A stretch of DNA of 44,199 nt from Bodo saltans (Eukaryota; Euglenozoa; Kinetoplastea; Eubodonida; Bodonidae). A program made the position numbers and the translations under genes. A model generated the notes under the pieces. That model did no database searches and was not told the DNA's origin. It saw only the letters and a program-made list of their open reading frames with translations. Shown piece after piece: positions 14,225 to 40,337 of the stretch. The first letter of the stretch is position 1. Every line of letters begins with the position of its first letter. The DNA lies in NCBI GenBank assembly GCA_001460835.1, contig CYKH01000787.1:1-44199 (forward strand). Reading direction: 5' to 3'.

Positions 14225-14271
14225 TGTTTTCCTTCTTGATTTTCATCTTCTTCTTCCCCTCCACACAAAAG
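14225..14271 (+). promoter_or_regulatory. Probable spliced-leader acceptor for the thioesterase gene
   Basis: A long pyrimidine tract (TTTTCCTTCTTG, then TTTCATCTTCTTCTTCCCCT) is followed by the first AG at 14270-14271. The ATG at 14285 is the first after it, giving a 13-nt 5' UTR. Confidence 0.5.
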
Positions 14272-14284
14272 GACTTGCTTTCCA

Positions 14285-15229
14285 ATGGCACATCTTCTTG
14301 CATCATCGGCACTCTCGTGCTCACTGGTGCTCCTTCTCATTTTTGTGCAGGTGTTCCACACTGCACTGTCAGCACAACAGCGTTACCGCCCCGTTGTTCT
14401 GGCCCCAGGTTTATTCTGCGGAGATGAGGGCGGCATCCCCACCATCGCCGGTTGGCTGCACGCCCAGTACCCTGGGATCTACATTCAAAACTACACCATC
14501 AACCACTGGGCCTCGCTGCTGATTGACCTCGACCAACAAGTGGAGAACTTGGCTGCGCTGATTCAATCTGACCCTAACTTGGTGGACGGGTTCGACATGG
14601 TTGCCCATTCCCAAGGAGCCCTCGTGACGCGTGGGTACATTCAGCGCTACAACAACCCACCCGTCCACAACTGGATTTCCCTTGCTGGACCCAATGGCGG
14701 CGTCTTTGGTGTGCCGGACTTTAATGATTGGTGCCCGGATGATACGTGGGGCACCTAGTTGTTATAAAACTCGGAACTGGTGGAGAAGGGGTTCACCGAG
14801 CCGTTCCTGCAGCACTACGTCACGTTTGCGTCGTACTGGAAAGACCCAATGCACATGAGTCTGTTCCTCAATGCGTCAGCGTACATTGCGGACATCAACA
14901 ACGAACGTGCCGTCAAGAACAGCACGTATCGCCAGAATAACGTTGCGTTGAACAGCATGACACTTGTTCTCGCTGAGCTCGATCAGATTGTGGTCCCAAA
15001 AGAGTCTGAATGGTTCGCCTTCTTTGAAGACGGCTCCGATTCCGTTCTCCAAAACTTGACGCAAACACCGACGTACGTTGGCGACTGGATCGGCTTGAAG
15101 ACACTTGATCAGCAGGGGAAGCTGCATCTCTTGAGTGCCAAGTGCGGCCATCAGGAACTCCCGACTGAGTCGTGCAAGAACTACACATGGCCCATCATTC
15201 AAGCGTTAACAGGAGGGCTGCTTCCTTAG
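14285..15229 (+). pseudogene. PPT1: Palmitoyl-protein thioesterase (PPT1-like) interrupted by two in-frame stops
   Basis: A PPT1-family lysosomal alpha/beta-hydrolase, which removes palmitate from cysteine residues of proteins. A signal peptide covers about residues 1-30. VVLAPGLFCGD starts the fold; the nucleophile Ser109 lies in AHSQG; the acid Asp is at 14981-14983 in LDQIVVPKESEWF; the His is at 15149-15151 in CGHQEL. PPT1 hallmarks such as WISLAGPNGGVFG and the SEWF motif are clear. All three catalytic codons are in one frame, but TAG at 14756-14758 and TAA at 14765-14767 lie between Ser and Asp. In the neighbouring frame, 14746-14766 reads HLVVI, which matches the position of HICDFI in PPT1, so two compensating single-base errors or mutations could explain both stops. 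Length without the stops fits the family. Whether it is a true pseudogene is open. Confidence 0.85.
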
Positions 15230-15547: not shown

Positions 15548-17552
15548 ATGGAGACTACTGTCACCCTCGCTGCGGTGTTTCTACTTAGCTGCTGCTGCTG
15601 GTGTGCTGTTGGTGCAGCAGCAATTCCTTTCATACCATCGACTCCATCGACTCTAGCGGTGGGACAACGGACGCAGCTATGGACGGCTACGGAAACGTGG
15701 TGTACACTACTAGTGATTTGAATGGAGTGTTTCGGCTGGGGTCTACTACTTCTCCCTTCACATTTCCCGCAGATACTGTCAGTCCCAGGAGCCTTACCTG
15801 CGACGCATCCACAAACATTTTTTACGTCGCCGGTACAGAACGAATCGCAGCTGCATCCCTCACAACCTATGCACTTCTAGTATTGCTGGCAGCTCGCAAG
15901 GGTACAATGACGCCATTGGAACCAATGCACTTTTCAACTTTCTCATATTCATCCCAGGGGGATTACCTGCGACGCATCCACGAATATTTCTTACATCACC
16001 AGTTATTATCACATCTGATCTGTGACATTTACAAGCAATTCATTTGTTTGGTCGGCCGGCGGTAACTCTTCTGGGTACAAAGATGAAGTCGGAACTGGTG
16101 CACTCCTTAACTATCCCACCGGTATTGCTTCCTTTTCACCAAGCAACGTCCTTTACATCGCAGATACGAACAACAACCGCATTCGCAAAATGGATCTTGC
16201 GACAGTGAACGTCACCACTATCAAGCAATTCACCACAACAACTCTCAACTACCTGTGCATCAATAGACATGGAACGTTGCTGTACGCGACGAAAGACTCC
16301 AAAGTCTTAGGAATTTTCACCACAAATAGCACCTCGTTTGGCGTACGGAGTACCACAACTATTTCGAGTCCCCAAGGTGTTGCACTAAACTCCGATGAGA
16401 CCGCACTGATTGTAGCGGACAATGCAATCCTCAAGCAGATTAATCTATCAACCACCTTGGTCACACCCATCACTCATACAACGTTCAACACACCAACCGG
16501 TCTGAAATGGTATTGCCTCAGCTCTGGCATTTGTGGTATCCTTGTTGCGGATACAACAAAGGTTTCGTTTCTCCGGATGAGACCAGCTTCAACCAGCGCA
16601 TCGCCATCGATTGCATCCAGCGATTCGCAGACTCCAACCATTTCAAATTCAGAAATTAAGTGGTCCGGAACAGCTTCGACGTCACGATCGACCTCATCGT
16701 TTGATTCAAGAAGCGCTTCAACATCAATTTCTCGTTCGTTGCCCACACAATCGCTTTCATCCTCCCTTCCCTTACCTACCACAACATCTTTCCCCTCTGG
16801 GAACTCTTTGAACCATGGTTCGTTCCACGATAGATCACACTTTCCGTCGCGATCACACTCCTTCCAATCTCATGGCAACGCAATAACCGAACACACTCAG
16901 ACTTCCGCAGGAATCTTTTCTGATTCCAGAAGCAACCTCGCACGTACCCCGGTGAGCGCCACGGTGTTGCGCAGCCAACTCATCAGCTCCGTTGTGGGTG
17001 CGATGTCTGGCGGTGCACGCCTTGCCTCAATCACAGTCGCCCAGTGCGGCGTGGACAACGGTGGTGTCACTGGCCTGGTGTCCCCTCACTGCAACTTCAC
17101 ATCGGCGCACGAGGATGACCTGAACGCTATCATCTGGAACTGGATGGTGGTGCTTGTGGGCACCGCAGCTGCTTGGCTAGCATGCGTCGCGATGTCGTCC
17201 CTACCGCAGGTTTGGAGTGCCCGACTACCGGTTGCTCCTATCGTCCTGGAGCAGAAGTTGGCAAGATGGATTTAGAGTTGCTGTGTGAAAACGGTAACGG
17301 TGCATCCATTGTAATTGGCTGTGGTGATCCACGCAAGCACCACGCAAGCACTCTTCCAACAATGGTCACGACGTACAGAATGGTAACGGAAATGAGATGT
17401 TAGGGGACGAGTACGATATTTTCTGGGATGCTGAAGTGCGGTGCGCTGACGAGAGCGCCTCGGATTGGGATAGGAGTTTATGTCGTCTCGTTGTTCTTAA
17501 CAACATTTCAACCGTTCCATTTTGTCAATTGTCGTTGATCAGTAAAGAATAG
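15548..17552 (+). pseudogene. Decayed NHL-repeat membrane protein, paralogue of the next gene
   Basis: Starts at ATG 15548 with a signal peptide (VTLAAVFLLSCCCWC) that parallels the paralogue at 17580. The propeller part then moves to another frame near 15640-15660 (TTDAAMDGYGNVVY), is disrupted again near 15870 and 15960-16020, and becomes open from 16022 to 17275. That piece carries NHL-like strands (YPTGIASF, VLYIADTNNNRIRKMDL), a Ser/Thr-rich stalk and two hydrophobic segments (about 16970-17210) matching the first membrane part of the paralogue. The remaining helices are missing. Beyond the stop, 17349-17552 in yet another frame still looks coding (GDEYDIFWDAEVRC, ending TAG at 17550-17552). 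An internal repeat of ITCDAS-like sequence occurs with a 169-bp offset (15794 and 15963). At least four frame changes argue for a pseudogene rather than isolated read errors. Confidence 0.75.
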
Positions 17553-17579
17553 GCAGATGTTAACAAAGGCTCCCCAAGA

Positions 17580-20500
17580 ATGAGGTCCAAGGCCACCCTC
17601 GCAACAGTGCTTCTCATTAGCAGCTGCTGTTGTTACGTTTGTGCGATTTCCTTGGTATCATCGACCATCTTCGCTGCTTCAGCTCAGCTTGAGGCCACCG
17701 ACGCCGCTATGGACAATTCTGGGAACGTAGTGTACATTACAAGCGCTGTGAATGGAGTGTTTCGTCTTGGGACTAGTACTCCATTTCAATTTCCTTTATC
17801 GACTATCAACCCCAATGGCATTACCTGCGACTCAGCCACAAACGTTTTTTACATCGCCAGTATATATCGCGTTTGGTCTGTTACTACAAGCAATTCCTTT
17901 GTTTCGCTGGCCGGCGGTAATTCTGCAGGGTACGCAGATGGAACTGGAGACAGTGCTCTCTTTAATTATCCCACGGGCATTGTTTCTTTAAGGAGCGTGC
18001 TGTATGTGGCAGACACGCGCAATAGCTGCCTACGCAAGGTTGATCTTACAACAAACAGCGTCATCACCATAGCACAACAGCCAACCCCAAACTACCTGTG
18101 CATCAACAAGCAGGGAACAATTTTGTACGTGACGCGCAATTCTGGTAGCACCGGGGTCGTGAGGATTTTCATAACCAATGGCACCTCGCTTGATGTGCAA
18201 GGTAGCGGCACTCATTCGCGTCTCCAAGGTGTTGCACTGAACTCTGACGAGACTGCACTGATTGTAGCGGAAATAAATTACCTCAAGCAGATTAATCTTT
18301 CCACCACCGTTGTCACACGCATCGCTGCAACAAGGCTCATCACACCGAGCGGTCTTAAGTGGTATTGCCTCAGTTCTGGTGTTTGTGGTGTGCTGGTTGC
18401 GGACACCATCAAGGTTTCGCTTTTAAGGCTGAGGCCAGGTTCAACCAGCGCTTCCCTTACTCCCGCATCCAGCAATTCGCAGACTGCATCCATTTCAAAT
18501 TCAGAGGTTGAGTGGTCTGTAACTACTTCGATGGGATTAGGTTCAGCATCGATGCCACCATCGGCTTCGCCCGTGTCTGTTTCCAAAAGCGTTTCGGCAT
18601 CAATCTCTGCATCTCAAGGTCTGCCCACACTTTCCTACTCGATTTCCTCAGCGAGGTCACTTACCAACACACAGTCTACCGCTAAGTCGTGGAGTGCCCC
18701 TACCCTCTCCGGTTCTTTTGCGAACTCAATGACTTTTAGAACAGTATCGTCGTCGAGCAGCGGATCACCATCTCGGAATTTCACAGCAACGTTTTCTAAT
18801 TTAACAAGCAAGTCTTCCACACTAGATGAAACCCACCGCTCACAGAGCCCGTCGTTATCCAACTCATTTAGTACGCACTCTGCAACCAAAAGTGTCGTCT
18901 CATCCTCCAACACGTCACCAAACTGCAGCACCCACTTGTCGATGAGTCCTTTATCGGTTAATCAAGCATTGCAGCTTTGTCCGTTGGTTGGCTCTCCATT
19001 CTTTGCAGATGAAGCCGTGTGCACCCCCATTGTTCCGTTGAGCCCATACTATGGCCAGCGTAACTCATCGTCCTTGACATGGCAGTACACTGTGCCCGAT
19101 GTTGACGCTGCAGCACGCTCGTCGTCTCAGTTCCTGCTCCTGGCCTTCGCACTCAATACTAACAACATCATCAGCGGCTGGGCGCTGGATTCTCCAGGCA
19201 CCAGCACCACCAACACATCGTGGCTCCTCAATGCAGTACTTCCCAACTGCACCGTTGGGCTGATCACGATGCCGTATCCAAATGCCGCCGGCACGATCAC
19301 ATTGAACTTCGTCGCTCGTTGTGCGTTGGAGCGTGTGAACGTGACCGTCACGGTAACCACTCCGCAGCATCCTGGCGCTGTGAGCACGATCACCAAAATT
19401 TCAACCGCAGTGGCTGTGAGTGCCGCTGCTGCCTTCGGTAATGACGCGTCAACTACCGCTTCGCTGGTGCTGCTTTCGTTACTTTCGTGCACATCGCTAT
19501 CGCCGGATCCTGGTGTCAGCGGATATGCCATGTCCTTCGTTTACAACTACGGCCCAATTGCGATGGTGAGTGGTAACATTGGAATTGGTGTGGGCGTGAC
19601 TTTACTGTTTGCTGCTACAGTTTTTGTATTGTCTCGTCACTTGGGCCATGCCCGCTACGACACTGCTGCTGAGATTCTACGCTTCCCGGCAGTGCCAATT
19701 CACGTGGCGGACTTTTTCTTACCCGGAACATTATTTGCGTCGTTCTTGTGCTTCTGGTCAACAGAGGGCGGGGCGCTTCCAACGGGCGTGGTGGGTGCGT
19801 GCATCGTTGCAGGATACGTAGCTGGAACTCAAATAATGCATGGGAGTGTCGTTCAGCCATTGTGTTCCTTTACAGCGTACAATGTCCCTTACCCAACCGG
19901 CCATGCCCGTGAAGCATCGATCCTTTTCCCTCGATGTCGTTGGTCCCCTCACTCGCGCAACAAATACAGCCCATTGGTGAACCCGTTTGTGCCTGGGAAA
20001 GAGTGGACCCGCACAATGCTCTTATGCTTATCCCTTCTCCTCGGTGCTGTGTCAGGCATGGCCTCATCTGGAGTAGGTTGTAGTGCTGGCGCGTGGATCA
20101 TCGGTGTAGCGAACATTGTAGCTGCGTTGGCGTTGATGTTCTTGCGGCCGTTTCGATTGCCTGTTGATAAATGGATAGCTCCCCTCACGATATCGCTGAT
20201 TGGACTATCATGCGTACTGAAGGCAACTGGCGATGCCGACTTAGCGGCTGCCAGTGACGGCTTGACCGGCGCGGCGTCCATGCTACAAATTCTGCGCACC
20301 CTTCTCACCGTGTGGGTGCAAGCACGTGAAGACCAGTGGAACGAAGAGGGGAAGTATTCTATCGGAGCGAAGTTTTTGTTTTGGTTGTTTAGAGAGCGAC
20401 GACGAGTTCCACCACCACCGCAAGAGGAACCCATGACTTTTGACGCATTTTCATCAACATCAGTCCAGCACCCAATCATGTTGGGTATGGATGAGGTCAA

Positions 20501-20699
20501 GGACAACAGGGCACCAACATCGTCATACGTTGAAGAGCGCGTGCAGATGATAGACTTTGCTCCAGTGCCCCCTGCCGCAACACTGCAGCTGGAGCACACT
20601 GATGTGTCGCTCTTTGCGCAAGAGGGTCATAAGGTATTCGAGGGGATTGATGGGTACTTCATGCTTGAGGGCCTTAAGAAGGCACCTTTGTTGTTATGA
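17580..20699 (+). CDS. NHL-repeat ectodomain fused to polytopic membrane domain
   Basis: 1039 residues. A signal peptide occupies about 1-33. Residues 40-285 hold NHL/beta-propeller-like repeats (YPTGIVSLRSVLYVAD, NSCLRKVDL, LQGVALNSDETALIVAE). A Ser/Thr-rich stalk follows (290-460), then a Cys-containing globular part with several N-glycosylation sequons. About eight hydrophobic segments are seen near 605-640, 658-686, 708-727, 737-757, 812-831, 837-856, 865-885 and 897-917, then a cytosolic tail of about 120 residues. The order suggests a cell-surface or endomembrane protein with ligand-binding ectodomain; receptor function is inferred. The upstream neighbour is a decayed tandem copy, and the 26-31 kb gene shares the membrane part but not the ectodomain. 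Confidence 0.85.
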   Translation: MRSKATLATVLLISSCCCYVCAISLVSSTIFAASAQLEATDAAMDNSGNVVYITSAVNGVFRLGTSTPFQFPLSTINPNGITCDSATNVFYIASIYRVWSVTTSNSFVSLAGGNSAGYADGTGDSALFNYPTGIVSLRSVLYVADTRNSCLRKVDLTTNSVITIAQQPTPNYLCINKQGTILYVTRNSGSTGVVRIFITNGTSLDVQGSGTHSRLQGVALNSDETALIVAEINYLKQINLSTTVVTRIAATRLITPSGLKWYCLSSGVCGVLVADTIKVSLLRLRPGSTSASLTPASSNSQTASISNSEVEWSVTTSMGLGSASMPPSASPVSVSKSVSASISASQGLPTLSYSISSARSLTNTQSTAKSWSAPTLSGSFANSMTFRTVSSSSSGSPSRNFTATFSNLTSKSSTLDETHRSQSPSLSNSFSTHSATKSVVSSSNTSPNCSTHLSMSPLSVNQALQLCPLVGSPFFADEAVCTPIVPLSPYYGQRNSSSLTWQYTVPDVDAAARSSSQFLLLAFALNTNNIISGWALDSPGTSTTNTSWLLNAVLPNCTVGLITMPYPNAAGTITLNFVARCALERVNVTVTVTTPQHPGAVSTITKISTAVAVSAAAAFGNDASTTASLVLLSLLSCTSLSPDPGVSGYAMSFVYNYGPIAMVSGNIGIGVGVTLLFAATVFVLSRHLGHARYDTAAEILRFPAVPIHVADFFLPGTLFASFLCFWSTEGGALPTGVVGACIVAGYVAGTQIMHGSVVQPLCSFTAYNVPYPTGHAREASILFPRCRWSPHSRNKYSPLVNPFVPGKEWTRTMLLCLSLLLGAVSGMASSGVGCSAGAWIIGVANIVAALALMFLRPFRLPVDKWIAPLTISLIGLSCVLKATGDADLAAASDGLTGAASMLQILRTLLTVWVQAREDQWNEEGKYSIGAKFLFWLFRERRRVPPPPQEEPMTFDAFSSTSVQHPIMLGMDEVKDNRAPTSSYVEERVQMIDFAPVPPAATLQLEHTDVSLFAQEGHKVFEGIDGYFMLEGLKKAPLLL

Positions 20700-21061
20700 G
20701 AGAATTATGACAAAAATAATACCGTTTGTCACTCACTGTCCGCATTTTTTATTTTTTATTATTGTGCTGTATTCCTCATCAGGTTGTCAGATCTTTTCGT
20801 ATCGTCCACTGCACTGGCCCCAATTTACCTTCTCACAGAGGTACTCCTTTGAAAACGTCTCCTCACTTACTTTCCACCGTCATTTTGTGTGATGAGAAAT
20901 ACAAGAGACATTTGCAATAAGCCCTCCGAAAGCACTCGTCATATTTATTTCGTCGTTACTTCTTAAACGAGATTTTCAGCCTTTCTTTGTGGGCTCCAAC
21001 ATAGTGAAACAACAAGTAGACAACAAAAAGGTTCCTTTATTTCCTGTTGAATGGTGTGTAC
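20700..21061 (+). other. Intergenic region with probable splice acceptor and short uORF
   Basis: 362 bp without a convincing gene. A pyrimidine-rich tract at about 20968-20998 is followed by the AG at 21003-21004, a plausible trans-splice site. A four-codon upstream frame, ATG at 21051 to TGA at 21063-21065, overlaps the main start codon. Confidence 0.5.
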
Positions 21062-21065
21062 ATGA
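21051..21065 (+). promoter_or_regulatory. Minimal upstream ORF overlapping the main start codon
   Basis: ATG GTG TGT ACA TGA reads four codons. Its stop overlaps the ATG at 21062 as ATGA, and another in-frame ATG follows at 21065. If the mRNA begins at 21004, ribosomes meet this ATG first. Such an overlap could lower translation or allow reinitiation; this is inference. Confidence 0.4.
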
Positions 21066-24000
21066 TGCAACCGTCATACACCGGTCACCACTCTCCCTCG
21101 TCGCACCACGACGCGTCCCCGCCATCCGCGTCGATGGAGGCGTCGCCTTCTGCGTCCCCAGCGATCTTACCTGCGGCAGAAATGACATCACACAAACAAC
21201 AAAAGAGCACACGTAGTAGAAAGAGACCACCGCTGTTCAGTTTGTGGCAGCTATCTGCCTTGATTGAAGCAGACGCACGCCTCCTGCCCGTCAAGACGTT
21301 TGTGATCAACAATTTAAGTCTATGGCACTACGAGCATCAACTGCCGCGACCCCCGCTGCAGTCAGGCAGACGACAAGGCCTGTTCGTTCGGCGACTCCCC
21401 ACCATGTATCTGACAGAAGAAGATTCTGCAGAGAATAGTTCCGTCAAAAAGAAACCCACCAACCTACGTGATGAAGTCCTAGCGGCGCTGGACGTTAGCG
21501 TTGCAGGGTACAAAGAAATGCTGTATTTCCACGATAAGATCCACACCAACACCATCATCTTCGTTGAAGCTATCAACCGACAGTTTCCTACCAAGAAGGG
21601 ACCACTTTGGCGTTTTGGCTTACGCGTCCCGTTGTCGCAGGATGGAAAGGAACTCACGTCGTACGTTGCACAGCGGCAACACGGATTAATGCGGAATGCC
21701 AACGTCCTTGCAAAGATTGAAGTCCTTTGGAACTTGTTCCCCAAAGACTATCGTGGGTTCTTGGCGAAGTCCACACACGCACGCATCTTTTACGACTTCT
21801 TCAAAATTTTAGCGTTTGACGTGGTGGACGAATCTCTTAGGATGGAGTTGGTGCGTAAAGATTGGGAGCTTCGAGCGGATGGTCGATTGTCCATCGACGG
21901 GTCACGATTTTGTGTCTCCATGCGCTGCACGGTAGATGTGTGGTGCGAGACCAACGACCCGCAAGAGGCGGTGGACTTCCTTGGGTTTGTGATAAGTGTC
22001 GCAAGGCGGACCCTCCTTACCGGCGACGATGAGCTGCAACGAGGCCATGGGCTGCTGAGTGGAGGCGATGGCGGCGGTGGTGGTGGCGATGCATCAGGCC
22101 ACCATGTCGGAGGCGGTGCTGGTGGTGGCGGGATGGAAGCTTCGGAGCTGCAGGGTGTCTCGACAGTGGCACTACGCGACGGTCGAAAGCAAGTCGAAGA
22201 TCTTATGGTGCGCACTTTGGGTCGCAGGAATGTAGGACTTCACTCTGCAGAGGATGTCCTTCGCCGCCGTCAACAGTTAGAAGAAACTCGTAACAACAAC
22301 AGTCCACTGAAACGCCTTCGAATGAGTGGACGCAACGATGCCGCATCGTTAGACGGCAGTAGTAGCACCAGCACCGTGGCCAGCAGTCGACGGAAGCCAA
22401 CGCACCACGCCACCAACACCTTTGCGACAAGTTCGTTGGTCAGTTTTGTCGTCGCACTCACGACGCCAGGTGCGGTGCCAAAGTTCGATGTGAAAAGCTC
22501 ATTAGCAAAGAGAATGGAAGCGACGGAAACCATTATTGCCACTCGAGGCGACAGTAACGGGATGATGAACGCAGCAGAAGCGTCGATGAGCCCTTCGATG
22601 ATGGCGCCACCCACCCCGTCGGTCCTTTCCAAGAGCCGTGCGGATTTGAGCATGAGCAAGTCTGGCCGGAGTGGGTTGGATGCCAGTGGACGGCCTGGGA
22701 AAGACGATTCTTTTTCATCCCGTGGCACGTATGCATCTCTGAAATGCCTCGTCCCGAGGAAGGTCAAGACAACTCTGAAACCTAACATGGAGTCTGAGTT
22801 TTTAGACCGCTATTCTGCTCTGGACCGCATCTCTGAAATGCCTCGTCCCGAGGAAGGTCAAGACAACACTGAAACCGAACATGGAGTCTGAGTTTTTAGA
22901 TCGCTATTCTGCTCTGGACCTTAGGCTGCCAGCATCTATTACTGGAGGAGGCGGCGGCCCTCCACCGTTGCCTACACGCTCCTTCCACCAACAACATCAA
23001 GCGACAGCAACTCTTGGTCGTGGCGTCGTGGCCTCCACACACCATAGCGGCGACAAGTCAGAGATTAACCACAATGCAACTGAGGACGACAGGGAGGAGT
23101 TCAATGAGAATGAATCGAGATCCGATCCGTTGTCATCGGTCAACGGGCAGCACCCAGCAGGAACAACATCTAGCAGCAATGGCCCTGGCCACCACCACAA
23201 GACACGCGAAGCCACACTATGGACGCAACCTGATGTCATGTTCCTTGACTCCTTTGGAGCCGATGTTCGTATGGGAGGCAGCGACGAAGAGAGCAATGAC
23301 GACGACAGAGAACGGCAAGATAACAGAGGGGTGCGGGGCCTTGGAATGGACTTGTACGGGTCCCTCCCCAGCGGCACTCCACCACCCACGAGGATGATGG
23401 GTGATGAAGATGATGCGAGCAACAACAACGACGACGATGCTTCCTTCGAACGCGGTGGTTGTGGGAACGATTCGCTCCTGCTAGACAGCATTCCGGCATC
23501 TCCATCTGGCACCCCTCGCAACGCGTCCATGTCGTCGTTTCGGGGTGGTGCTATCATCGGTGCGAGAAGATCAGGCGCTGCATCGCCACGTGGGGCATCG
23601 TTTGTGCGTCGTGCACTCCGACGTGTCAATGAGAGCGGGTCCCCGCCTCGAGCGTCCACCGACGTGAATGGTGATGACAGTGATGACTCCATCGACGAAG
23701 CTCTGGCGTTAGTCGAGCGTCACTTTTCTCGAAAGCAGTCCATGTTCCGTGACACACGGCGCAAGAGTCGACAAGCAAGTGAGGCTCTTCGTGCTGCACT
23801 CGTCCGCCCTGTTGGTGCAACCACCACCACACAACATTTATCAACTGCGTCCATACACCCTCCTGGTTCATTACTGGAGGATCCCAGCTCATCTCCGTCA
23901 AGTACTGCTCCTCTAGCATCCCCAGGCACCATGGCATCGTCCCGTGCAAGTTCACCTCCAGGTGGCATCGCTGGGAATAGTTACACTGCGCCGATTGCTG

Positions 24001-25571
24001 TAGGACGACTTGCAAGAACTGCAGCGGTGTCGTTTCGAGTCCGTCCCGCTGATGATGAAGCACCACGCATGTTCCTGCCCAACAGCAGCACCAACAATAA
24101 TACCAGTAACACCACATTCTCAACTGCGGAGCAAACAACGACGGTTGAAGAATTGTCAATTATTGGCAGTCCTATTACTGGAAACGGTCTCATCAACAAT
24201 AACAACATGTCGTTGAGGTATCCTTCCCAGCAGCAGCAGCATAAGCCGTCGCCCCAAACAACAGCCAAGACGGGAAATGGGAGCCTTCACCTTCAAGCTG
24301 GTGGCGGCAACAACGATGACCCTTCTGATCAAATGTTGAGCAGTCTTACGTTCTCTGCGTCCGCCCGGCCACAAGAGTTGGGAAACGTTGTCATGGTGGA
24401 CAGCACTGTCGTGGTGGGGGGCGGTGGAGCGATGGGGAATCGACGGCGGAGCATCGCTGCCGGTGGCGGTCGGCAAGGGTCTTCCTCTACTCTTCGACGG
24501 CGCAATACGTTGCTGTCCTTTGTCACCACAGAAGTCGACGATGAGGATGTGTTTGAGAAGAACATGGTCAACTTTGTGCACGAGCTCACCGATAATATGA
24601 CCCTAGAGGAGCAAGAAGCGCACCGTCTAGCCTCCACATATGAGGACGCAGACGCCGCACACTACGCCCCCCTCGCAGAGTTAGCCATTCCGGCGACCCT
24701 AATCAAAGGTCTTGCAAGGTGGCGAGGTCCGATGCACTGCACTGGGCAGAACGACTTGTACCGTTGGTTTGACCCAAGGCTGTACGGTGTGGTGTCAAGT
24801 GTGTCCGTTGCGTCTCTACGGCGATTCTCCAGCCCATTCGTCTTTGCGTTTCTCTTAGATCCGTGGGCGCAACGGTTCGGCGAGGAGCAACAGCCTCGAC
24901 TCAGCTCTCCCACCACTGCCGTCGCGCCGCGATTAGATGATGCGCCGCGAACCAACACCAGTGCGTCCCAGTTGGCTCAAGAAGCTGCGACACCAACACC
25001 GCAGATTCAACTTCGGTGGTACTATGAGAGGCTGCCTTCGATGGATCCNNNNNNNNNNNNNNNNNNNNNNNNNNNNNNNNNNNNNNNNNNNNNNNNNNNN
25101 NNNNNNNNNNNNNNNNNNNNNNNNNNNNNNNNNNNNNNNNNNNNNNNNNNNNNNNNNNNNNNNNNNNNNNNNNNNNNNNNNNNNNNNNNNNNNNNNNNNN
25201 NNNNNNNNNNNNNNNNNNNNNNNNNNNNNNNNNNNNNNNNNNNNNNNNNNNNNNNNNNNNNNNNNNNNNNNNNNNNNNNNNNNNNNNNNNNNNNNNNNNN
25301 NNNNNNNNNNNNNNNNNNNNNNNNNNNNNNNNNNNNNNNNNNNNNNNNAGAGTCTGATAGCACCATCCGTGTATTAGACCCTCCCCGAGCAATGACGGTA
25401 CCGCTGTTGGGTCCTCTTCTTCCTCAGCAGCAAGACGCCCTATCCGCTCCCCGCGGTGGGAGTGCCATATCATCGCGTGGTGTATTGGAGGAGTCGCCTC
25501 AACCGATGCGGCAACAGAACACGTCAACGGCCGGGTTGGGGAGTGCTTACTGCGCCTGCCCACTGCGATGA
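21062..25571 (+). CDS. Large unknown protein, frame broken by a 94-bp duplication and a sequence gap
   Basis: Not a family I recognise. The first part (21062-22891) has a Ser-rich N-terminus and then a well-folded region (SLWQLSALIEADARLLPVKTF, FHDKIHTNTIIFVEAINRQF, FYDFFKILAFDVVDE) followed by Gly/Ser-rich linkers. At 22733-22920 a 94-bp unit is present twice and shifts the frame, so the first frame ends at 22891 and the second opens at 22881 inside the repeat. Removing one unit joins them into one frame of 1472 codons, N-gap included. The second part is mostly disordered (Asp/Ser/Asn), with a conserved-looking block near 24560-24870 (FVHELTDNMTLEEQEAHRLA, LARWRGPMHCTGQNDLYRWF). Its codons run into the gap at 25049-25348 and resume after it. 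One gene is the simplest reading. Confidence 0.7.
22733..22826 (+). repeat. 94-bp tandem duplication, copy 1
   Basis: Direct repeat from GCATCTCTGAAATG to GCTCTGGACC. Adjacent copy 2 differs at about three bases. The length, 94, is not a multiple of three. Confidence 0.95.
22827..22920 (+). repeat. 94-bp tandem duplication, copy 2
   Basis: Second copy. Here the same peptide (MESEFLDRYSALD) is encoded in the frame that continues downstream, so copy 2 belongs with the 3' half and copy 1 with the 5' half of the gene. Confidence 0.95.
25049..25348. other. Assembly gap of 300 N
   Basis: Exactly 300 undetermined bases inside the large unknown gene. A round number suggests an estimated or default gap size, so the reading frame across it is uncertain. 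Confidence 0.99.
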
Positions 25572-25961
25572 AATCCGTTCTTTCGCAAAGCACCCCGCTA
25601 CGGTCATGCTTTTCCCGACTTGTCACGTCACCTTGCGGCTGCCAGTGACTGCGGCAGCAACAGCAGGAGTAGTAGGACTGCAGCCGCCACAAACGGACGG
25701 GTAGCGCATTCTGCTTCCACTCAGCTGGCCCAACAGAGGAATGTGTCTGCGTATTGCGCTCGTCTCCAGCAACAGGTAGCAGAGCAACACCGCAGCACAA
25801 CCACTTCGACACCGATGAGTGCTGCAGTCTCACTGTCATTATCGGCATTGGAAGATCAGGTGTCTGTTGGGGATTACGCTAAGCACCGCGTTGCTGGGGA
25901 GAACAAAAGGCTTCTCCTTGGGGCCCATCAGTCCTCCTCACATTCCACCAACAAACGATGA
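25572..25961 (+). other. Probable continuation of the unknown gene after a frame disruption
   Basis: The frame after the gap stops at 25569-25571, yet coding character continues. Between about 25548 and 25640 another frame gives LLRLPTAMKSVLSQSTPLR. From about 25620 the original frame again reads smoothly (LQQQVAEQHRSTTT, ALEDQVSVGDYAKHRV) to a stop at 25959-25961. Two compensating indels next to the gap would link these. This is likely the true C-terminus of the gene, but the local sequence may be poor. Confidence 0.45.
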
Positions 25962-26179
25962 AGGGAACAAAAGAGACGTGTACATTATGTGACGAGAGAT
26001 ATACAATGACGCACAGCAGGTGCTCATTTTACACAGCCTGATTGTCTTTTTTTTCCCATCTCTCTATGACCACACAGCGTTTAAAGATGTTTAAAGATAA
26101 AACGTGACAGTGAACACGTGATAAAGTAGTTAACGCAAAGTAATAGTAGGCACGAAAAGAGAGAACATTTCATCGCATC

Positions 26180-28327
26180 ATGCGCTGCGTGATTCCATGT
26201 GCTCTCATTGCCACTTTGCTGCATTTTTTGGTGGCCATGGCAGCGCCACCCCCTTCAGTCACAGCTGCACCTGAGAACGTCACTTGTGGAGGCTCCTTTA
26301 ACTTGTTCCTTTCCTCAAGCACGTCATCATCGTCAATTGTTCTCAAAAACTGCAGCAACGTGACGACGTTATACCTTCCGGACAATGCGTCTAACATCGC
26401 GTTGCTAGTTAGTGGAGGCACCAGCGTACCAACTTTGTTGTCGCAATCGATACGATCCAATGCGTCATGGTGGAACAATTTGACAATCACGTTGGTAGAT
26501 GTCAGCATGTCATCGACATCGCCGCAGCCCACGACTCCGATAGTACTATTCTGGGGCCAATTGCTAGTTAGTGGAGGCACCAGCGTACCAACTTTGTTGT
26601 CGCAATCGATACGATCCAATGCGTCATGGTGGAACAATTTGACAATCACGTTGGTAGACGTCAGCATGTCATCGACATCGCCGCAGCCCACGACTCCGAT
26701 AGTACTATTCTGGGGCCAACAGCTCAGCAATATTCACCTTCACATCAAAAACAGCACCATTGTAGTCACGCATGGCATAACGTCATTGACTGGACACTAT
26801 GCCATCAGCAACTCTACCTTCCTGATTGAAAACTCATCGATTACACACCATGAGTCTTATGCAAATAACTCGATGTGTTCATCGTACTTTATCTTTGTGG
26901 AGAATACCCTTCTCTCGCAAGATGCCGCCGCCATTGGCAATGTCTCGATGACAGTGAGAGGAAATAGTAAAATTGTTTACGAGACGAACTGCACCAGTGG
27001 CGCGTCGTGGTGTCAGCTGCATGTAGGAAAGTCTTCAGACGTCCCAAACGCGAATCGAAGGGGAATTGCTTGGAATGTCACAGTGCTTGATAGCACATTC
27101 CAACAGCACTCACTCGTGAACGACACCAGCACATCCTCGTCTTCTTCGTCAAGTAGTAGTGATAGTGGAATTGAGCTTGCTTCCGGAGCTTGGGACTACT
27201 TGATCTTTCAGCTCAACGCAGCATACCTTCAGAAAGTGAATGTGCGCATGAATAATTTCTCATGGAGCTCAACAGTTGAGATGAAATCGGCACGTAACAT
27301 TCTCCAGACGTCGCTGCTTCGCGTCTCTCCAAGCGGCGTGTCAAGTACGTTTTACCAGGATATTCACGTGACGATGCTGAACGGTACGTTCTCTGCAAGG
27401 TGCCCAACCAAACCCGTTTTGTTGTACTTCAGTTGCGACAACGCAACGGGTATCACAACATTCGTCCAGCAAGTGACTGGTGAACAAGTCACTTACGGCA
27501 TCGCCACTGGGGATGATGCGTCTCGTACGATTGCGATGGTGTACTACACGCCAACGTTTTTGAATGCCTCGACGATTACGCTGAGAGATATTCGAATGCA
27601 ACAATCGTTGATGTCGGGTCAAGGCACGTCCTCTCAAGGCCTCAATGCCAGCGCTGCATTGGTTAGCGCCAGCGCGTTTGTATTTCACATGCGCGCCGGC
27701 ACAAATTTTGGGGTGACAATTGTGCTGATGAACGTGACCAATGATGTGAGTGCCTCTGATGGTGGATTCTACTCGTACTTATATACTGCCCTGCCACCAT
27801 TGGCGTTCGCCTTAAACCGGGCGGGCCTTGATCTCACTCTGGGGTCAGTGTTGGTGGGTCTCGTCTACCTCGAACCGGCGACGACGTGCACCAGCCTAAG
27901 CCTTTCGGTAGAATCGTGCGGAGTGCATGTCCAGTCCTCAATATCCACTCAAGCATACAACACAACGCTAAGCAACATTCTAGCGGTATCGCACTCGCTC
28001 ATCCTTATGATGAGCTCATGCACTGATTGCGTGGTGTTGCTTCAAAACTCAACCCTTTCACGCCCGCCTATGTCATCGACTTTCGGGAACTGTGAGGAGG
28101 CATCTGCATCTTCAGCGCTGCTCTGCGTCAACATTACTACCACCGCATTGGTGCAAGCGAGTGACCCAAGGAACTTTGCGACCAACTGGCTGAACGACCC
28201 AAATATACAAAGCATCATTTCAATAGCTCAGATGCAGAACGCAGCTATTTCTTTGAACGACGTGGATACTTATTTGTCACAGACCGCGCTACGGAACACG
28301 ACACTCACCATTGTGAATAGCTGCTAG
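26180..28327 (+). CDS. Glycoprotein-like ectodomain, 5' part of a fragmented membrane-protein gene
   Basis: 715 residues from a clear signal peptide (CALIATLLHFLVAMA). The chain is Ser/Thr/Asn-rich with many NxS/T sequons. Recurring short strands of the type NVTVLDSTF, NVSMTVRGNS, DIHVTMLNGTF and GVTIVLMNVT suggest a right-handed beta-helix or similar repeat fold (inference). Residues 75-127 are repeated exactly as 128-180 by a 159-bp duplication. The frame stops at 28325-28327 with no membrane anchor. The next open stretch is in the same frame and carries the transmembrane segments, so this is probably the N-terminal part of one larger gene ending at 31162. Confidence 0.7.
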   Translation: MRCVIPCALIATLLHFLVAMAAPPPSVTAAPENVTCGGSFNLFLSSSTSSSSIVLKNCSNVTTLYLPDNASNIALLVSGGTSVPTLLSQSIRSNASWWNNLTITLVDVSMSSTSPQPTTPIVLFWGQLLVSGGTSVPTLLSQSIRSNASWWNNLTITLVDVSMSSTSPQPTTPIVLFWGQQLSNIHLHIKNSTIVVTHGITSLTGHYAISNSTFLIENSSITHHESYANNSMCSSYFIFVENTLLSQDAAAIGNVSMTVRGNSKIVYETNCTSGASWCQLHVGKSSDVPNANRRGIAWNVTVLDSTFQQHSLVNDTSTSSSSSSSSSDSGIELASGAWDYLIFQLNAAYLQKVNVRMNNFSWSSTVEMKSARNILQTSLLRVSPSGVSSTFYQDIHVTMLNGTFSARCPTKPVLLYFSCDNATGITTFVQQVTGEQVTYGIATGDDASRTIAMVYYTPTFLNASTITLRDIRMQQSLMSGQGTSSQGLNASAALVSASAFVFHMRAGTNFGVTIVLMNVTNDVSASDGGFYSYLYTALPPLAFALNRAGLDLTLGSVLVGLVYLEPATTCTSLSLSVESCGVHVQSSISTQAYNTTLSNILAVSHSLILMMSSCTDCVVLLQNSTLSRPPMSSTFGNCEEASASSALLCVNITTTALVQASDPRNFATNWLNDPNIQSIISIAQMQNAAISLNDVDTYLSQTALRNTTLTIVNSC
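26402..26560 (+). repeat. 159-bp in-frame tandem duplication, copy 1
   Basis: From TTGCTAGTTAGTGGAGGCAC to CTGGGGCCAA. 53 codons, so the frame is kept. It differs from copy 2 at one base seen (T at 26500 versus C at 26659). Confidence 0.95.
26561..26719 (+). repeat. 159-bp in-frame tandem duplication, copy 2
   Basis: Second copy, adjacent to the first and nearly identical. Near-identity means a recent event or an unmerged overlap in assembly. Confidence 0.95.
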
Positions 28328-28405
28328 CGACACCACCAGGGCTCGTGGTTTCATCAGAGCGTCGTTGACGTTGTTCTCGCACGTCTACAGTTGTAATAAC
28401 GAGTG

Positions 28406-30082
28406 ATGAATGAGGGACACGCGTGGATGCCACCGCGACAATGGAACTGCGAAGGGATACGTGCCAACACCGCGCCTTCCTCACCGGCGGTTGTCGGGGC
28501 GGTACTGCTTGGCTGCGTTGGAAACTGCACCATATCCGAATCAGCGACCATTCAGGTGAATGCGGTAGCGTCACCTGAACCTTCGTTGAAATCCTCTTCA
28601 ATGGTTGTAGCGTTACGAGCAGTGCTTGGTGGAGTGCTATCACGTGTCATACTTGAGGAGTCATCGCGCTTGTCTGTGCATCGAGCTGTGTTTACTGCAC
28701 AGGAAGACAGATACCTTCCCATGACAGCGGCGAAGCATCACGCCCAGCAATTTGCATCGTCGCGCCTGCTTTACGGCCTGGTGTACTTTATGTGGGGCAA
28801 TAGCACTGCAACGCCGCTGTTGTTGGTGTCGAGCAGCGCACGCATCACGCTCAACCAAAGCGTTCTTTATGGATTCGACTCTGCCTTGCTGAAAATTGCA
28901 CAATCGTCCTCGTCGTCCTCGTCGTCGTCGCAACAACAAACAAGTGCATTTGCTGTCGATGGTTACCTGGAGTTAGGCTGTAATCTATGGAGCGGAGGTA
29001 CGACGGCATCATTCTCATCCAATGAGCCGATTGCGCTACCCTGGCAGCTCGTGGGCCTACCAAGGGGACCAAGACGCCACATTGTCTACGTTCCTTCGAC
29101 GTTCGATGGCGGAGAGGCATTTAACGCGTCGTCTTCGCATTGTGTTGGCTTGCCAACCGAGAGCGAAAGTATTTCCATGCACACCACGTCAATGCAACTG
29201 GTCCCCCCAGCCGTTATCGACGTGAATCCAAGCCCTTCTCTTTCAAAAGGCACCACTGGTACTGTTGCTGCTGCTACGGGAGCTGCGATTCTAGTCTCTC
29301 TTGTTGGCGGAGGAGTAGGCGGGATCTCGATCGACCTGCAACTCTTGGCAATATTTGGTCGCTCCTCCTGTGCCCCAGAGGCACTTAAGACGGCAACAGG
29401 CCCTTCTCAGTGGCTCTTATCTCCATTTTACTTGCTACCGTCTGTTTGGATGGTGGTGGGGAATTGTGCTGTGGTGGGCGCTGTCATTCTGCTGCAGCTG
29501 GCTGTTGTGCGAGTGATATCATCCAGATCTTCAAAAGCAGCACCATCGTCAAAACCGCAAAATGCAATCATCACTTTGAGTGCCGCTCAAAAAACCGACG
29601 GCAAAGCCAGATTAGAGCCACATTCTGCGACGGTGACGCCGTCCTTCGGGTCTACGGCATCCGCTGACAATCACGTCACAACATCGCCAGCAGCATTAGA
29701 GTCGCCCCCCCACACGTCACTTTACTCTTGGAGACAGGACCATATCAGTGGCACCCACCACCACTCTCACCACCTAACTACCGCAACCGCCAGCAACACA
29801 GCCGCAAGAAGAGCACGTTGGGAGCTGGCGTGTACGCGAGCACGCTTTCCGCAGTTGAGCTACTCGGTTGGCATGCTAATGGTGAGCGGCGTCGTCTCCT
29901 CTTCCACCACGATCTTGATATTCGACGGGATCGAGAACGGCGACGCAACCTTCGGCGTCGTAGGAGCCATTGGCCTATGTCTGGTGCTGTGTGGCACCAT
30001 GCCCTCCGTGCAGTGCTGTGACGTCGGTGCACACGCGGCGAAATGCAAGGTGTTTATGAGAGTAGCACAGGAATGGCGGTAG
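28406..30082 (+). pseudogene. Middle part of the fragmented membrane-protein gene
   Basis: Open in the same frame as 26180-28327, separated from it by about 25 codons holding three stops. The first ATG is at 28406, and there is no signal peptide, which fits an internal piece. It continues the Ser-rich ectodomain with sequons, then shows hydrophobic segments (AAATGAAILVSLVGGGVGG; WMVVGNCAVVGAVILLQLAVV; GVVGAIGLCLVLCGTM). These align in order with the NHL protein at 17580-20699, including FP-x(n)-GVVGA. It ends at TAG-like stops just before the region where the last helices should follow. It is part of a decayed gene, or read errors have introduced stops. Confidence 0.6.
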
Positions 30083-30208
30083 AGTATGTAAGTAGGGTAA
30101 GAGAATGGTTGGCCAGCAACCAAAGGACTATGTCGCTCCGAGTGCGTGCCTAAGAACGCTTCGAGACAGTTGGGTCCACCACAGTTCCACGTTCAATAAG
30201 GGTAATAG

Positions 30209-31162
30209 ACGAGAGTCGAGCGTCGCAAGCATGCTGCGCTCCCAATCACGTCGTCTGCGGGATGCGTCGCGCAGTGGGCTGTCCAGTCTGCGTTTGCTGC
30301 TGCTGTGTGCGTCATCACTGTAGTCTGGCGACCCTCTCGGCCTCCCATTGCCGATGTGTTTACGGTGATCAACCAAGCAATGACCGTTGGGGTGTGTATC
30401 CTCAGTGCAGTCCGTGTTGCCCATAGCCAGGTGGAGGACAACACGTCCCTCCAAGCAATCAATAGCGCGCTGTCTGTATTTGTCATGATATCTTCCGTCA
30501 ATGGAGTTGTGCGAGCACTTCACAAGTTGATGGTCCGCGTGTGGGAGGGCAAGCGGACCCATGCAGACATGTTGATTGCTTCTTCGCTCCAACGGAAGAC
30601 AACCCCAACAGCTAGAGCTATCACTCGCCGTCCAGAACATTTGACTTCGCGACTCACAGCAAATCTCTCCAAAAGAACTGCCAAGGACGTGGCAACGCTT
30701 CTGCCTGTTAGTGATGATGAAGAAACAAGTACGCTGTATGTTCCTCCCCAGTCCTCGTTGCCGAGCTCAGAATTTCGTGAAGAGCGTGTGAGGAGGTGGC
30801 TTGCAGCAGCAGCAGCATCATCATCTCACAACACAACACGGCGACAAGTCGACGACGCAGCAGCAACAGCAGTGGCTCTCCCAACGCCGCCTCGGACGTT
30901 CCCACCTGGTGGCAACAACAGTGCTGTCCATCGCCATCAACATGTGTTTTCCACCGATACGCTTGGGGGCCGGAAGTCTCTTCGCCCTTCTCAGTTTGGG
31001 GCCGTGCCACCCATGACTCCCCACGAGACGGTTCGTAACCTGAGCAGACTCGTGGACCTTGCAGTGCGTATCAACACCACCAATAGACTGGAAGACTGGG
31101 AGAGAAGGGGTAGAGCCACCTCGTTAATGCTGCTTACAAGTGAAGAGCGAAGGATGCTGTGA
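30209..31162 (+). pseudogene. 3' part of the fragmented membrane-protein gene
   Basis: An open stretch in the same frame as the two preceding pieces, with no good ATG at its start. The first 60-odd residues align without gaps to the NHL protein: GCVAQWAVQSAFAAAVCVI then WRPSRPP corresponds to GCSAGAWIIGVANIVAALAL then LRPFRLP. A further helix pair follows, then a cytosolic Ser/Arg-rich tail of about 200 residues. Between 30083 and 30208 several stops occur in this frame, while neighbouring frames contain short coding-like pieces (for example YVSRVREWLASNQR). It can only be understood as the end of the gene starting at 26180. Confidence 0.6.
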
Positions 31163-36728: not shown

Positions 36729-37658
36729 ATGTTGCACCTTGTGACCGGCTTGTACGACTCGATATTCAGCGAGGAGAAAGCAAACGTGCTTGTAGTGGGT
36801 GCAGAGGGTGCGGGTAAAACCACAATTGTGGAGCAGCTCCGCTTCATGCTCGGCCCGAACAGCGGCGGCGCGCATCACCGACCCAATGCTGCCATCACAT
36901 CAAAACCAATCCGACCAACCGTTGGGCTCAACATGGTACGAGTAAAAAGGAAAGCAGACAGCGGCGCACTGAAGAACGTCTTCAGCGCGTCCTCCTCCTC
37001 TCCCCCGCCGACCAGCATCGCCTTTTGGGATGTGGGAGGACAATCAAGTCTTCGACCACTGTGGGTGAATTACTATCCGCAGTGTCACGGGGTCATATTC
37101 GTCATAGATGCATCGACGATCTTGACCAAGAGTGCTGATGTTTCTCGCATCACGAGGCATTTGCTGTGCCGACCAGATCTTGTCTCAGCGCCAATGGCGA
37201 TCTTGTTCAATAAATGGGATGTGGTGGAGGCCGCTTGTCATCAACAGCAGCATCAACACGTCCCTCCAGGCTCACCAGCAGCCGAACTCGCGACGTTGAC
37301 AGTGGCCAAAGCAATGGATGCGATAGGCTTAGTAGATTCGCTCCTTTACGCAAGCAGCGTTCTCACGAGACCGGAAGCACTGCTGTCCTCCTCTTCCTCG
37401 TCGTCAACAGGAAAATCTGTGAATGGCGGATGGAATGATGACACTCAACAACAAAAACATCTGTCTGCATCTTCATCTCCTCCTCCGATTCATCAGCAGA
37501 GCACTGGAAACGATGCAGGAAGTTGCGGGTTTGGTGTGAAGGTGTTTAAGTGCTTTACGGTGAGTGCCGCTGCTACAGGTGACGGTGTGCTGCAGGCATT
37601 TGACTGGCTTCTCTCCCAATCGCTGACCCACCGCGACGTTACAGAAGACGACAAGTAG
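36729..37658 (+). CDS. ARFRP1: ARF-related GTPase, ARFRP1-like
   Basis: 309 residues. The N-terminus MLHLVTGLYDSIFSEE is typical of ARFRP1 (yeast Arl3), which has no Gly2 myristoylation site and acts at the trans-Golgi to recruit ARL1 and golgins. G1 is GAEGAGKT at 24-31, the switch I Thr is in PTVGLN, G3 is WDVGGQ at 100-105, followed by SLRPLW and YYPQCHGVIFVID as in ARFRP1. G4 is NKWD at 161-164 where NKQD is usual. Two insertions of low-complexity sequence (about residues 42-60 and 205-270) make it half again as long as the roughly 200-residue family norm. All nucleotide-binding motifs are present, so it should be active. Confidence 0.9.
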   Translation: MLHLVTGLYDSIFSEEKANVLVVGAEGAGKTTIVEQLRFMLGPNSGGAHHRPNAAITSKPIRPTVGLNMVRVKRKADSGALKNVFSASSSSPPPTSIAFWDVGGQSSLRPLWVNYYPQCHGVIFVIDASTILTKSADVSRITRHLLCRPDLVSAPMAILFNKWDVVEAACHQQQHQHVPPGSPAAELATLTVAKAMDAIGLVDSLLYASSVLTRPEALLSSSSSSSTGKSVNGGWNDDTQQQKHLSASSSPPPIHQQSTGNDAGSCGFGVKVFKCFTVSAAATGDGVLQAFDWLLSQSLTHRDVTEDDK

Positions 37659-39359: not shown

Positions 39360-40337
39360 ATGAGCGATCCATTCAGCAGCGGTGGCAACGGTGGGGCAGG
39401 GTTCTACAACAACAACAATAATAACATCGGCGGCATCGGCAACCAGGCGTACAGACCTGGGGGGATGATGGGCTCGTCGTCTACTGTTCACATGCGGCAA
39501 CCAACGCCCCCACAGAGTTTCCAGGTGAATACCTCCCCAAGTACTGGATTTCACGGACAGGATCCTTTCGGCGGAGGCGGCGGTGCACATGGCGTGAGCG
39601 TTGGTGGCGGAGATGGTTTCTACGCGCACCCTACTTCAGGCGGCCACTCCTCGCAACAACAGTTCTTATCAAGAAGGTCGCCGCTGGAAGCGCCGCCGCC
39701 ACGTAGCAGGAGGTCTCAAGATCTCGGCCTAGGGATGATGAATGGATCAACTGGTGGGGGCAGCAGCGTGTCCAGCGCAGATATTCACAGAACTCGCTTT
39801 GGCTTCCCTGAGGATGACCTCCCCCTCCTGCAAGAGCTCGGTGTGTTCCCCCGCCACATTCAAGCGAAGGCGTTGGCAGTGCTGAACCCCTTCTCCCCTA
39901 ACTCGCCTGATGCAATGGAGGACATGGATCTGGCTGGTCCAGTGATGTTCGCTATCATTCTTGCCTTCTTGCTTTCCCTTCAAGGGAAGGTGCAGTTCAG
40001 TGCTATCTACGGCTTGAGCCTTTTGGGCATTGGGTTCGCCAAGATGCTCCTGACACTGATGTGCGACCAGCACGATGTCGCAGTTCAGTTTGTCGTGAGC
40101 ACCTTGGGCTACTGCCTCCTTCCGAATCTTGTGTTAGCTGCAGTTCAAACGTTCCAGTTTTGGCTCATCGGATCGCACACGGTCATCTTACCAGTGGCAT
40201 TTCTCGTCATCGGCTGGTCAGCGTGGTGCGCGACCACAATGTTTGTGCAGGCACTGGCGATGGACGCTCAGAAGTACTTGATCTTGTACCCCTGTGTGTT
40301 ATTCTACGCTGTGTTCGCTGCCTTGACGATTTTTTAG
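39360..40337 (+). CDS. YIPF5: Yip1-family membrane protein, YIPF5-like
   Basis: 325 residues. The cytosolic N-terminus (1-150) is Gly/Asn-rich, including six Asn in a row. Then PEDDLPLLQELGVFPRHI, the usual entry to the domain, and the Yip1 hallmark DLAGP near residue 190. About five membrane helices follow (roughly 193-209, 213-232, 240-260, 266-290, 300-325), with GYCLLP in the third and ALAMDAQK before the last, both matching YIPF5/Yip1. The family works in ER-to-Golgi vesicle formation with Rab (Ypt1/Ypt31) GTPases. Length is near the family's. The start ATG follows a short AT-rich leader. Confidence 0.93.
   Translation: MSDPFSSGGNGGAGFYNNNNNNIGGIGNQAYRPGGMMGSSSTVHMRQPTPPQSFQVNTSPSTGFHGQDPFGGGGGAHGVSVGGGDGFYAHPTSGGHSSQQQFLSRRSPLEAPPPRSRRSQDLGLGMMNGSTGGGSSVSSADIHRTRFGFPEDDLPLLQELGVFPRHIQAKALAVLNPFSPNSPDAMEDMDLAGPVMFAIILAFLLSLQGKVQFSAIYGLSLLGIGFAKMLLTLMCDQHDVAVQFVVSTLGYCLLPNLVLAAVQTFQFWLIGSHTVILPVAFLVIGWSAWCATTMFVQALAMDAQKYLILYPCVLFYAVFAALTIF

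Follow-up and report, generated by a model that had tools for sequence, protein, structure and literature searches.

Evidence for ectodomain exchange between homologous membrane cores in bodonin surface proteins of Bodo saltans

The window analyzed here, a 44,199-nucleotide stretch of Bodo saltans DNA (contig CYKH01000787.1), holds an intact gene (gene A) and a broken one (gene B), each encoding an ectodomain followed by a polytopic membrane region. Since the ectodomains look unrelated and the membrane regions alike, the locus raises the question of whether one membrane core has been joined to different ectodomains. Our analysis indicates that A and B, together with a third, broken gene (gene D), are very probably bodonin surface glycoproteins whose ectodomains have been exchanged between homologous cores, with a likely role in adhesion or recognition. 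The features are listed in Table 1. In an Rfam scan of the window, no family attained its gathering score.

Table 1 Features of genes A, B and D in the window
Feature	Positions	Strand	Description
Gene A	17580..20699	+	Intact bodonin-like gene, single ORF, 1039 aa
A NHL-type ectodomain	17640..18530	+	Approximate limits
A Ser/Thr-rich stalk	18531..18929	+	Ser+Thr 46% across residues 318-450
A polytopic membrane core	19323..20357	+	Family profile match
B piece 1	26180..28327	+	Ectodomain, 715 aa, 26 N-glycosylation sequons
B piece 2	28403..30082	+	Ectodomain end and first core part (profile 23-190)
B piece 3	30209..31162	+	Last core part (profile 271-381) and tail
Gene D	15589..17275	+	Decayed neighbor; A-like NHL ectodomain split over two frames; tail of a different core clade
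D tail	16940..17272	+	First helices, second ('D-type') core clade

Gene A encodes, in order, an N-terminal hydrophobic stretch that fits a signal peptide, an NHL-type ectodomain, a Ser/Thr-rich stalk, the polytopic core (residues 582-926 counted from the ATG, or 591-935 in the ORF starting at 17553) and a C-terminal tail. The ectodomain matched solved NHL proteins with an E-value of 1e-15 (phmmer), and Pfam NHL at 16.5 bits, under the cut-off of 20. The predicted structure of the NHL ectodomain was all-strand with a mean pLDDT of 40.8, a model that would fit a propeller but proves nothing. The number of helices in A itself is uncertain, since the simple hydropathy count for this core depends on the threshold, with three membrane stretches at the strict value of 1.6 and nine at 1.3.

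Gene B (26180-31162) follows a single reading frame in which two internal stop clusters (28325-28397 and 30080-30206) leave three pieces of 715, 559 and 317 aa. When the whole genome was searched with the piece 1 ectodomain, it matched only itself, and no Pfam family scored above its cut-off in this piece; the ectodomain end in piece 2, on the other hand, has relatives in the genome. A relationship between the A and B ectodomains was not found: the best phmmer score was -0.4 bits (E 0.04 with only the two sequences compared, and in a Ser-rich part) and the best BLASTP value E 0.65, neither of them significant. This agrees with the first-pass annotation, which had seen none.

The same annotation had proposed that the membrane parts of A and B align in order, including a gapless stretch of 29 positions from GC-x-A to RP-x-R-x-P, and had named hydrophobic composition as the explanation that could undo this. 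Compared directly, the two cores are indeed only weakly alike. With the A core as query, BLASTP reached only E 0.002 for the first membrane piece of B, in the region RFP...GVVGA, and for the second no match was below E 12. The 29 positions run without a gap in both A (residues 833-861) and B (from nucleotide 30260), with 7 identities. Such pairwise values could be expected if the likeness came merely from convergence on a hydrophobic, Ala/Ser/Gly-rich composition. A profile built from 13 A-type cores of this genome, with A among them but not B, nevertheless matched the B membrane pieces in order, at 37.1 and 18.0 bits, and for each piece the real score was reached by none of 2000 full shuffles and none of 2000 shuffles in 12-residue blocks. 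Using a second profile of 32 cores (390 positions, none from B), we obtained E-values of 5e-32 and 3e-21, again colinear. Among the 345 six-frame ORFs of at least 60 aa in the window, A and the two membrane pieces of B alone fell under E 0.02, the next following at 0.029. Both cores also link directly to common relatives such as L055. Furthermore, eight positions are invariant in 29 aligned cores (C62, S77, G90, N91, G141, P209, W213 and R284 in A-core numbering), and the conserved Cys, Asn, Pro, Trp and Arg residues among them, like the Pfam DGF-1_C matches within the same genome (see below), speak against a purely compositional origin. The shuffles rule out similarity by composition alone, an explanation that we regard as extremely improbable; the cores of A and B are homologous.

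Hydropathy averaged over the family showed seven strong peaks and a weak Ala/Ser/Gly-rich pair, with 7.3 membrane stretches per core on average (range 5 to 9, 32 cores). This corresponds to the bodonin family of Bodo saltans, described as present in many copies by Jackson et al. 2016 (PMC4728078), where a bodonin has a Ser/Thr/Asn-rich extracellular domain, then a C-terminal domain with seven helices on average, and a tail in the cytosol. A large extracellular domain of this composition precedes the membrane domain in both genes: Ser/Thr/Asn amount to 18.1/11.3/6.7% in A, 15.7/10.5/7.3% in B piece 1 and 15.7/5.1/3.9% in the ectodomain part of B piece 2, compared with a bodonin mean of 14.8/10.4/5.6% (PMC4728078). 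The same paper relates ectodomain classes to PSA and FLA1 ('GXG') and transmembrane domains to DGF-1, and proposes bodonins as the source of these parasite surface families, which are now mutually dissimilar. PMC9967923 likewise concerns the bodonin gene family, while in PMC7859406, PMC8061765 and PMC4413820 'bodonin' stands for the taxon Bodonina.

The homology to the C-terminal membrane domain of Trypanosoma cruzi DGF-1 (DGF-1_C, PF11040) runs through relatives from this genome and not directly through A or B. Of 26 DGF-1_C matches in this genome, 19 scored above the Pfam cut-off, one of which did so only together with its in-frame neighbors, and in none of 14 control genomes was the cut-off passed; the matches include genes with A-side cores on C871. 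DGF-1_C did not match A, the B pieces or D themselves at E 0.1 or lower, and these genes differ from DGF-1 proper in this respect and in the NHL-type ectodomain of A. A and B are thus members of the published bodonin family and relatives of T. cruzi DGF-1. NHL repeats also form the extracellular part of the trypanosomatid FLA1, GP72 and FLA1BP, glycosylated surface proteins (PMC4827413, PMC10675206), and are common to these and to genes A and D, with D matching Pfam NHL at 37.7 bits (cut-off 20) and A the solved NHL proteins as given above. In contrast to the polytopic core of A (seven to eight helices in the family), the FLA1/GP72 proteins have one C-terminal transmembrane domain and a short tail or, in TcGP72, one N-terminal helix instead (PMC4827413, PMC10675206).

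The core could act as a receptor or channel, for instance as a signaling seven-helix receptor with an adhesion ectodomain, instead of as an anchor. Its seven to eight helices and conserved polar and Pro/Trp motifs, placed behind a large ectodomain, would suit such a function, and a large ectodomain before a seven-helix domain resembles the arrangement of adhesion GPCRs. However, no Pfam receptor or channel family scored above cut-off in A, B or D (ABA_GPCR reached 13.9 bits in B piece 3, below its cut-off of 22.1), no NCBIfam family matched at E 0.01, and the core profile found no related solved structure at E 1. We consider an active receptor or channel doubtful and favor an anchoring core.

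To see how widely the core is distributed, we searched the genome (29.3 Mb, 934 contigs). After merging, there were 113 family loci on 82 contigs, a count that takes in 24 of the 43 matches of one search, the ones lying in the core region, together with everything matched in five others, and that treats A and D as one under the 1.5 kb merging rule. Tandem arrays occur: five of the six copies on C383, and six on C472, lie 4.4-5.9 kb apart. Among 20 relatives scanned, five carried LRR and three DGF-1_C above cut-off. Of the 62 core-bearing ORFs, 42 entered the ectodomain clustering, having a core within reach and at least 120 aa of ectodomain; two of these, L028 and L029, are the same gene. The homologous membrane core carries NHL, LRR, DGF-1-like and unassigned ectodomains, some of the last being incomplete, since for many loci the sequence taken began 1.5 kb before the match. 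The proposal of a common core under varied ectodomains stands for the family at large; the third gene that had been compared, D, has a core of a different clade.

Gene D had been thought to share the first two helices of A. In that form the claim is ruled out, as the 13-core profile did not match D and the 32-core one scored it at only -2.1 bits (E 13). The tail of D instead falls into a second core clade that is a distant relative of the main one: a D-type profile built without D matched the tail at E 9e-23, and its identity is 64% with C411, 68% with one C258 copy, and 58% and 35% with two others. The ectodomain of D, on the other hand, resembles that of A, with 59-63% protein identity over the NHL region and 73% DNA identity across nucleotides 232-952 of A. 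The DNA similarity between the two genes stops at position 18630, within the Ser/Thr-rich stalk of A. The mismatch of the cores strengthens the idea of a swap, because the same ectodomain type, about 60% identical, sits atop cores of different clades. A second such pair (C11/C761; loci L028 and L020) has NHL ectodomains that are 56% identical, again on cores of different clades. L028 has a main core and is sister to the LRR-bearing L017 in the core tree (98/96), and in L020 a single open frame spans NHL and a D-type core.

We then compared trees of cores and ectodomains. In the core tree, built from 39 ORFs with long cores, a single clade was rejected both for NHL bearers (p 6e-15) and for LRR bearers (p 3e-8); two loci labeled 'other' in it are L044, which is a member of the DGF-like ectodomain cluster, and L007, whose start is overlapped by an NHL ORF in another frame. 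In the NHL tree, A and D form a clade (100/98) with cores from opposite clades. Forcing either the main-core bearers (p 1e-6) or the D-type bearers (p 4e-55) into one clade was rejected, in a tree where two of seven inner branches are well supported, L031 forms a very long branch, L025 represents the C786 gene (L007) and is labeled main core, and L027 and L031 are labeled D-type because the overlapping ORF that follows matches the core. Ectodomains and cores are thus incongruent.

These trees also bear on an explanation that needs no exchange, in which one ancestral ectodomain type was lost or diverged by lineage, and A and D resemble each other simply by descent, the core having evolved faster in one of the two copies. 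Since both core clades include NHL bearers, NHL could be ancestral, and some of the switches involving NHL or LRR on the core tree are possibly losses. Plain descent accounts poorly, however, for a D tail so close to C411 and to one C258 copy when NHL, looked for in the C411 ORF, was not found there, for an A-like D ectodomain on a core that does not match that of A, for the repetition of this pattern by L028 and L020, and for the two rejected NHL topologies. We judge it quite unlikely. Ectodomains appear to have moved between cores, a reading that these sequence comparisons support.

The general idea that a single membrane architecture can bear different ectodomains was already published with the bodonin family; the evidence for exchange is new. 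The main text of PMC4728078 contains neither 'modular' nor 'recombin', and we found no ectodomain exchange between core clades described there. Among the openly readable papers listed on bodonin, Bodo saltans and DGF-1 recombination, we found no earlier report of an exchange of the A/D type.

A bodonin would then consist of a putative signal peptide, an extracellular ligand-binding and probably glycosylated domain, a Ser/Thr-rich stalk such as that seen in A, a core of seven or perhaps eight helices and a cytosolic tail. Ectodomains of the NHL, LRR, DGF-1-like and other types would have passed from core to core, most probably through unequal recombination or gene conversion among neighbors in a tandem array, where the low-complexity stalk would tolerate break points. 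The proteins would likely serve adhesion or recognition at the cell surface, towards prey, substrate or in self-contact, with the core as an anchor and possibly a signal transmitter. More tentatively, and falling somewhat short of an expectation, the bodonin arrays may form a combinatorial system in which ectodomains of unrelated folds are joined over and over, by recombination in the low-complexity Ser/Thr stalk, to two deep clades of a single membrane core, making new surface-binding proteins in an organism related to the trypanosomes. Exchange within one genome would provide a concrete route from bodonins to the dissimilar surface families of the parasites, DGF-1, PSA and FLA1.

The membrane cores of gene A, an intact gene with an NHL-type ectodomain, and gene B, an interrupted gene, are barely similar when compared pairwise (best BLASTP E 0.002). 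The A core as a query retrieved many relatives from its own genome, and a profile of 13 such cores, with A included and B left out, matched the two B membrane pieces at 37.1 and 18.0 bits (E 1.4e-11 and 8.8e-6 for 182 sequences). The real score of either piece was reached by none of 2000 full shuffles and none of 2000 shuffles within 12-residue blocks, which keep the hydrophobic pattern; the best local shuffles gave 14.9 and 13.0 bits. With a 32-core profile, again without B, the pieces scored E 5e-32 and 3e-21 and lay colinearly at positions 23-190 and 271-381 of 390. The membrane parts of A and B are thus alike and in the same order, as the first-pass annotation had proposed, and the 29-position ungapped stretch it had described is real, with 7 identities. 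Of the 345 ORFs in the window that reach 60 aa, just A and the two pieces of B stood out (next best E 0.029). A likeness arising merely from hydrophobic composition, the reading that the annotation had named as fatal to its proposal, is ruled out by the shuffles and by eight residues, including Cys, Asn, Pro, Trp and Arg, that are invariant across 29 aligned cores.

The B frame leaves three remnants: a 715-aa ectodomain piece, a middle piece that includes the first half of the core, and a final one that includes the core's last part. B may be either a pseudogene or the product of draft-sequence error; interrupted frames also occur in some other family copies of the same assembly. Close to the B start, a 98-base exact direct repeat (26402-26658, offset 159) places about 53 residues twice in the ectodomain translation, reflecting either a recent duplication or an assembly effect. 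A run of 300 N (25049-25348) lies within the ORF 22881-25571, and the window is therefore a scaffold with a gap. The ORF at 14768-15229, next to the thioesterase-like ORF and in another frame, looks like its continuation.

Features of the window, with protein residues for the parts of gene A
Feature	Position	Description
Protein kinase gene	238-3213	Pfam Pkinase, 135 bits
Palmitoyl-protein thioesterase-like gene	14240-15229	ORF 14240-14758, Pfam Palm_thioest, 79.4 bits
Gene D	15589-16065 and 16022-17275	Broken; two ORFs
Gene A	17580-20699	Intact ORF, 1039 aa
A, hydrophobic N-terminal stretch	Residues 8-26	Compatible with a signal peptide
A, NHL-type ectodomain		Between N-terminal stretch and stalk
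A, stalk	Residues 318-450	Ser/Thr-rich (S+T 46%)
A, polytopic core	Residues 582-926	Numbered 591-935 in the ORF taken from 17553
A, C-terminal tail		After the core
Gene B	26180-31162	One frame; stop clusters 28325-28397 and 30080-30206
Arf-like GTPase	36729-37658	Pfam Arf, 76 bits
Yip1-like membrane protein	39360-40337	25.9 bits, just below cut-off 28.6

Gene D, the decayed neighbour of A, had been credited with A's first two helices. This did not hold: neither the 13- nor the 32-core profile of the main, A/B-type core matched the D tail, which belongs to another clade. It is 64% identical to a copy on contig C411 and 68% to one on C258, and a D-type profile built without D recovers it at E 9e-23. 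Comparison of the D-type and main-core profiles gave a probability of 92.5% and a score of 55.7 (column-shuffle maxima 23.8 for 60 block and 19.8 for 60 full shuffles); a single D-type member, L079, gave 54% and 37.6. Judged from these profiles, the D-type clade and the main core are remotely related. The tail of another NHL gene, L024 (C840, ORF 1201-4230), has only a weak match to the main core (E 3e-4 for the best domain, 0.03 for the tail as a whole) and none to the D-type profile; this gene may perhaps represent a third core clade.

Several lines of evidence support the suggestion that ectodomains are swapped on these cores. The 39-core tree separates the NHL bearers A and L028 and makes L028 the sister of the leucine-rich repeat (LRR) bearer L017 (support 98/96); placing these NHL bearers in a single clade was rejected (p 6e-15), as was doing so for five LRR bearers (p 3e-8). 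Since the D tail falls outside the main core and inside the D-type clade, A and D combine alike ectodomains (59-63% identical) with cores of different clades. Their DNA is 73% identical across A nucleotides 232-952, and the local alignment stops within the stalk, at A 18630 / D 16748. Likewise, the NHL domains of L028, a main-core gene, and L020 are 56% identical; L020 has its D-type core within a single open frame of 1167 aa. The NHL tree groups A with D (100/98) and rejects single clades of main-core NHLs (p 1e-6) and D-type NHLs (p 4e-55); against this, only two of the seven inner branches of the tree have good support, the L031 branch is very long, and the core types of L025, L027 and L031 were taken from a neighbouring, overlapping ORF.

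A's NHL assignment rests on its match to solved NHL proteins (E 1e-15), because its Pfam NHL score is under the cut-off (16.5 versus 20 bits); D reaches 37.7 bits. The predicted structure model of the NHL domain was of poor quality. The repeated DGxG motif suggests that these NHL genes correspond to Jackson's 'GXG' ectodomain class, and NHL repeats are also reported in FLA1, GP72 and FLA1BP (PMC4827413, PMC10675206). The expected variety of ectodomains was found: 42 of 62 core-match ORFs carry one of at least 120 aa, falling into 20 groups (BLASTP 1e-4; 13 singletons), a diversity perhaps overstated where a locus had been truncated 1.5 kb upstream of the match. In a Pfam scan of 20 of these 62 ORFs, five showed LRR ectodomains and five showed DGF-1_C at E 0.01, three of the latter over the cut-off.

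Bodonin is described as a multicopy Bodo saltans family whose members have an extracellular domain rich in Ser, Thr and Asn, roughly seven helices and a tail in the cytosol, and Jackson et al. link it to DGF-1, PSA and FLA1 (PMC4728078). Our tests agree with this identity. The family-average hydropathy of the core shows seven strong peaks plus a weak Ala/Ser/Gly-rich pair; the A core alone shows 3 or 9 stretches depending on threshold. Of 26 DGF-1_C matches in this genome (E 0.01 or better), 19 pass the cut-off, one only jointly with neighbours in frame, compared with none in 14 control genomes. They include genes on C871 with cores placed on the same side of the core tree as that of A; A, B and D themselves have no DGF-1_C match at E 0.1.

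Six merged searches yielded 113 loci spread over 82 contigs, or 88 over 59 when the D-type query is omitted. Counts for large families are lower bounds; conversely, fragments of a single broken gene may have been counted as separate loci, and A and D are merged as one. One core-like match (C548:30058-30330, E 4e-6) lies within a 10,339-aa open frame, far longer than other listed members. Several contigs hold arrays; the starts of neighbouring matches are spaced by 4.4-5.9 kb in those of C383 (five of six matches) and C472 (six). Unequal exchange, for which paralogue arrays with low-complexity stalks offer good substrates, would be the most likely mechanism of ectodomain exchange. Following the adhesion role suggested for bodonin (PMC4728078), the most likely function would be adhesion or recognition, in which the core may serve as anchor or transmitter.
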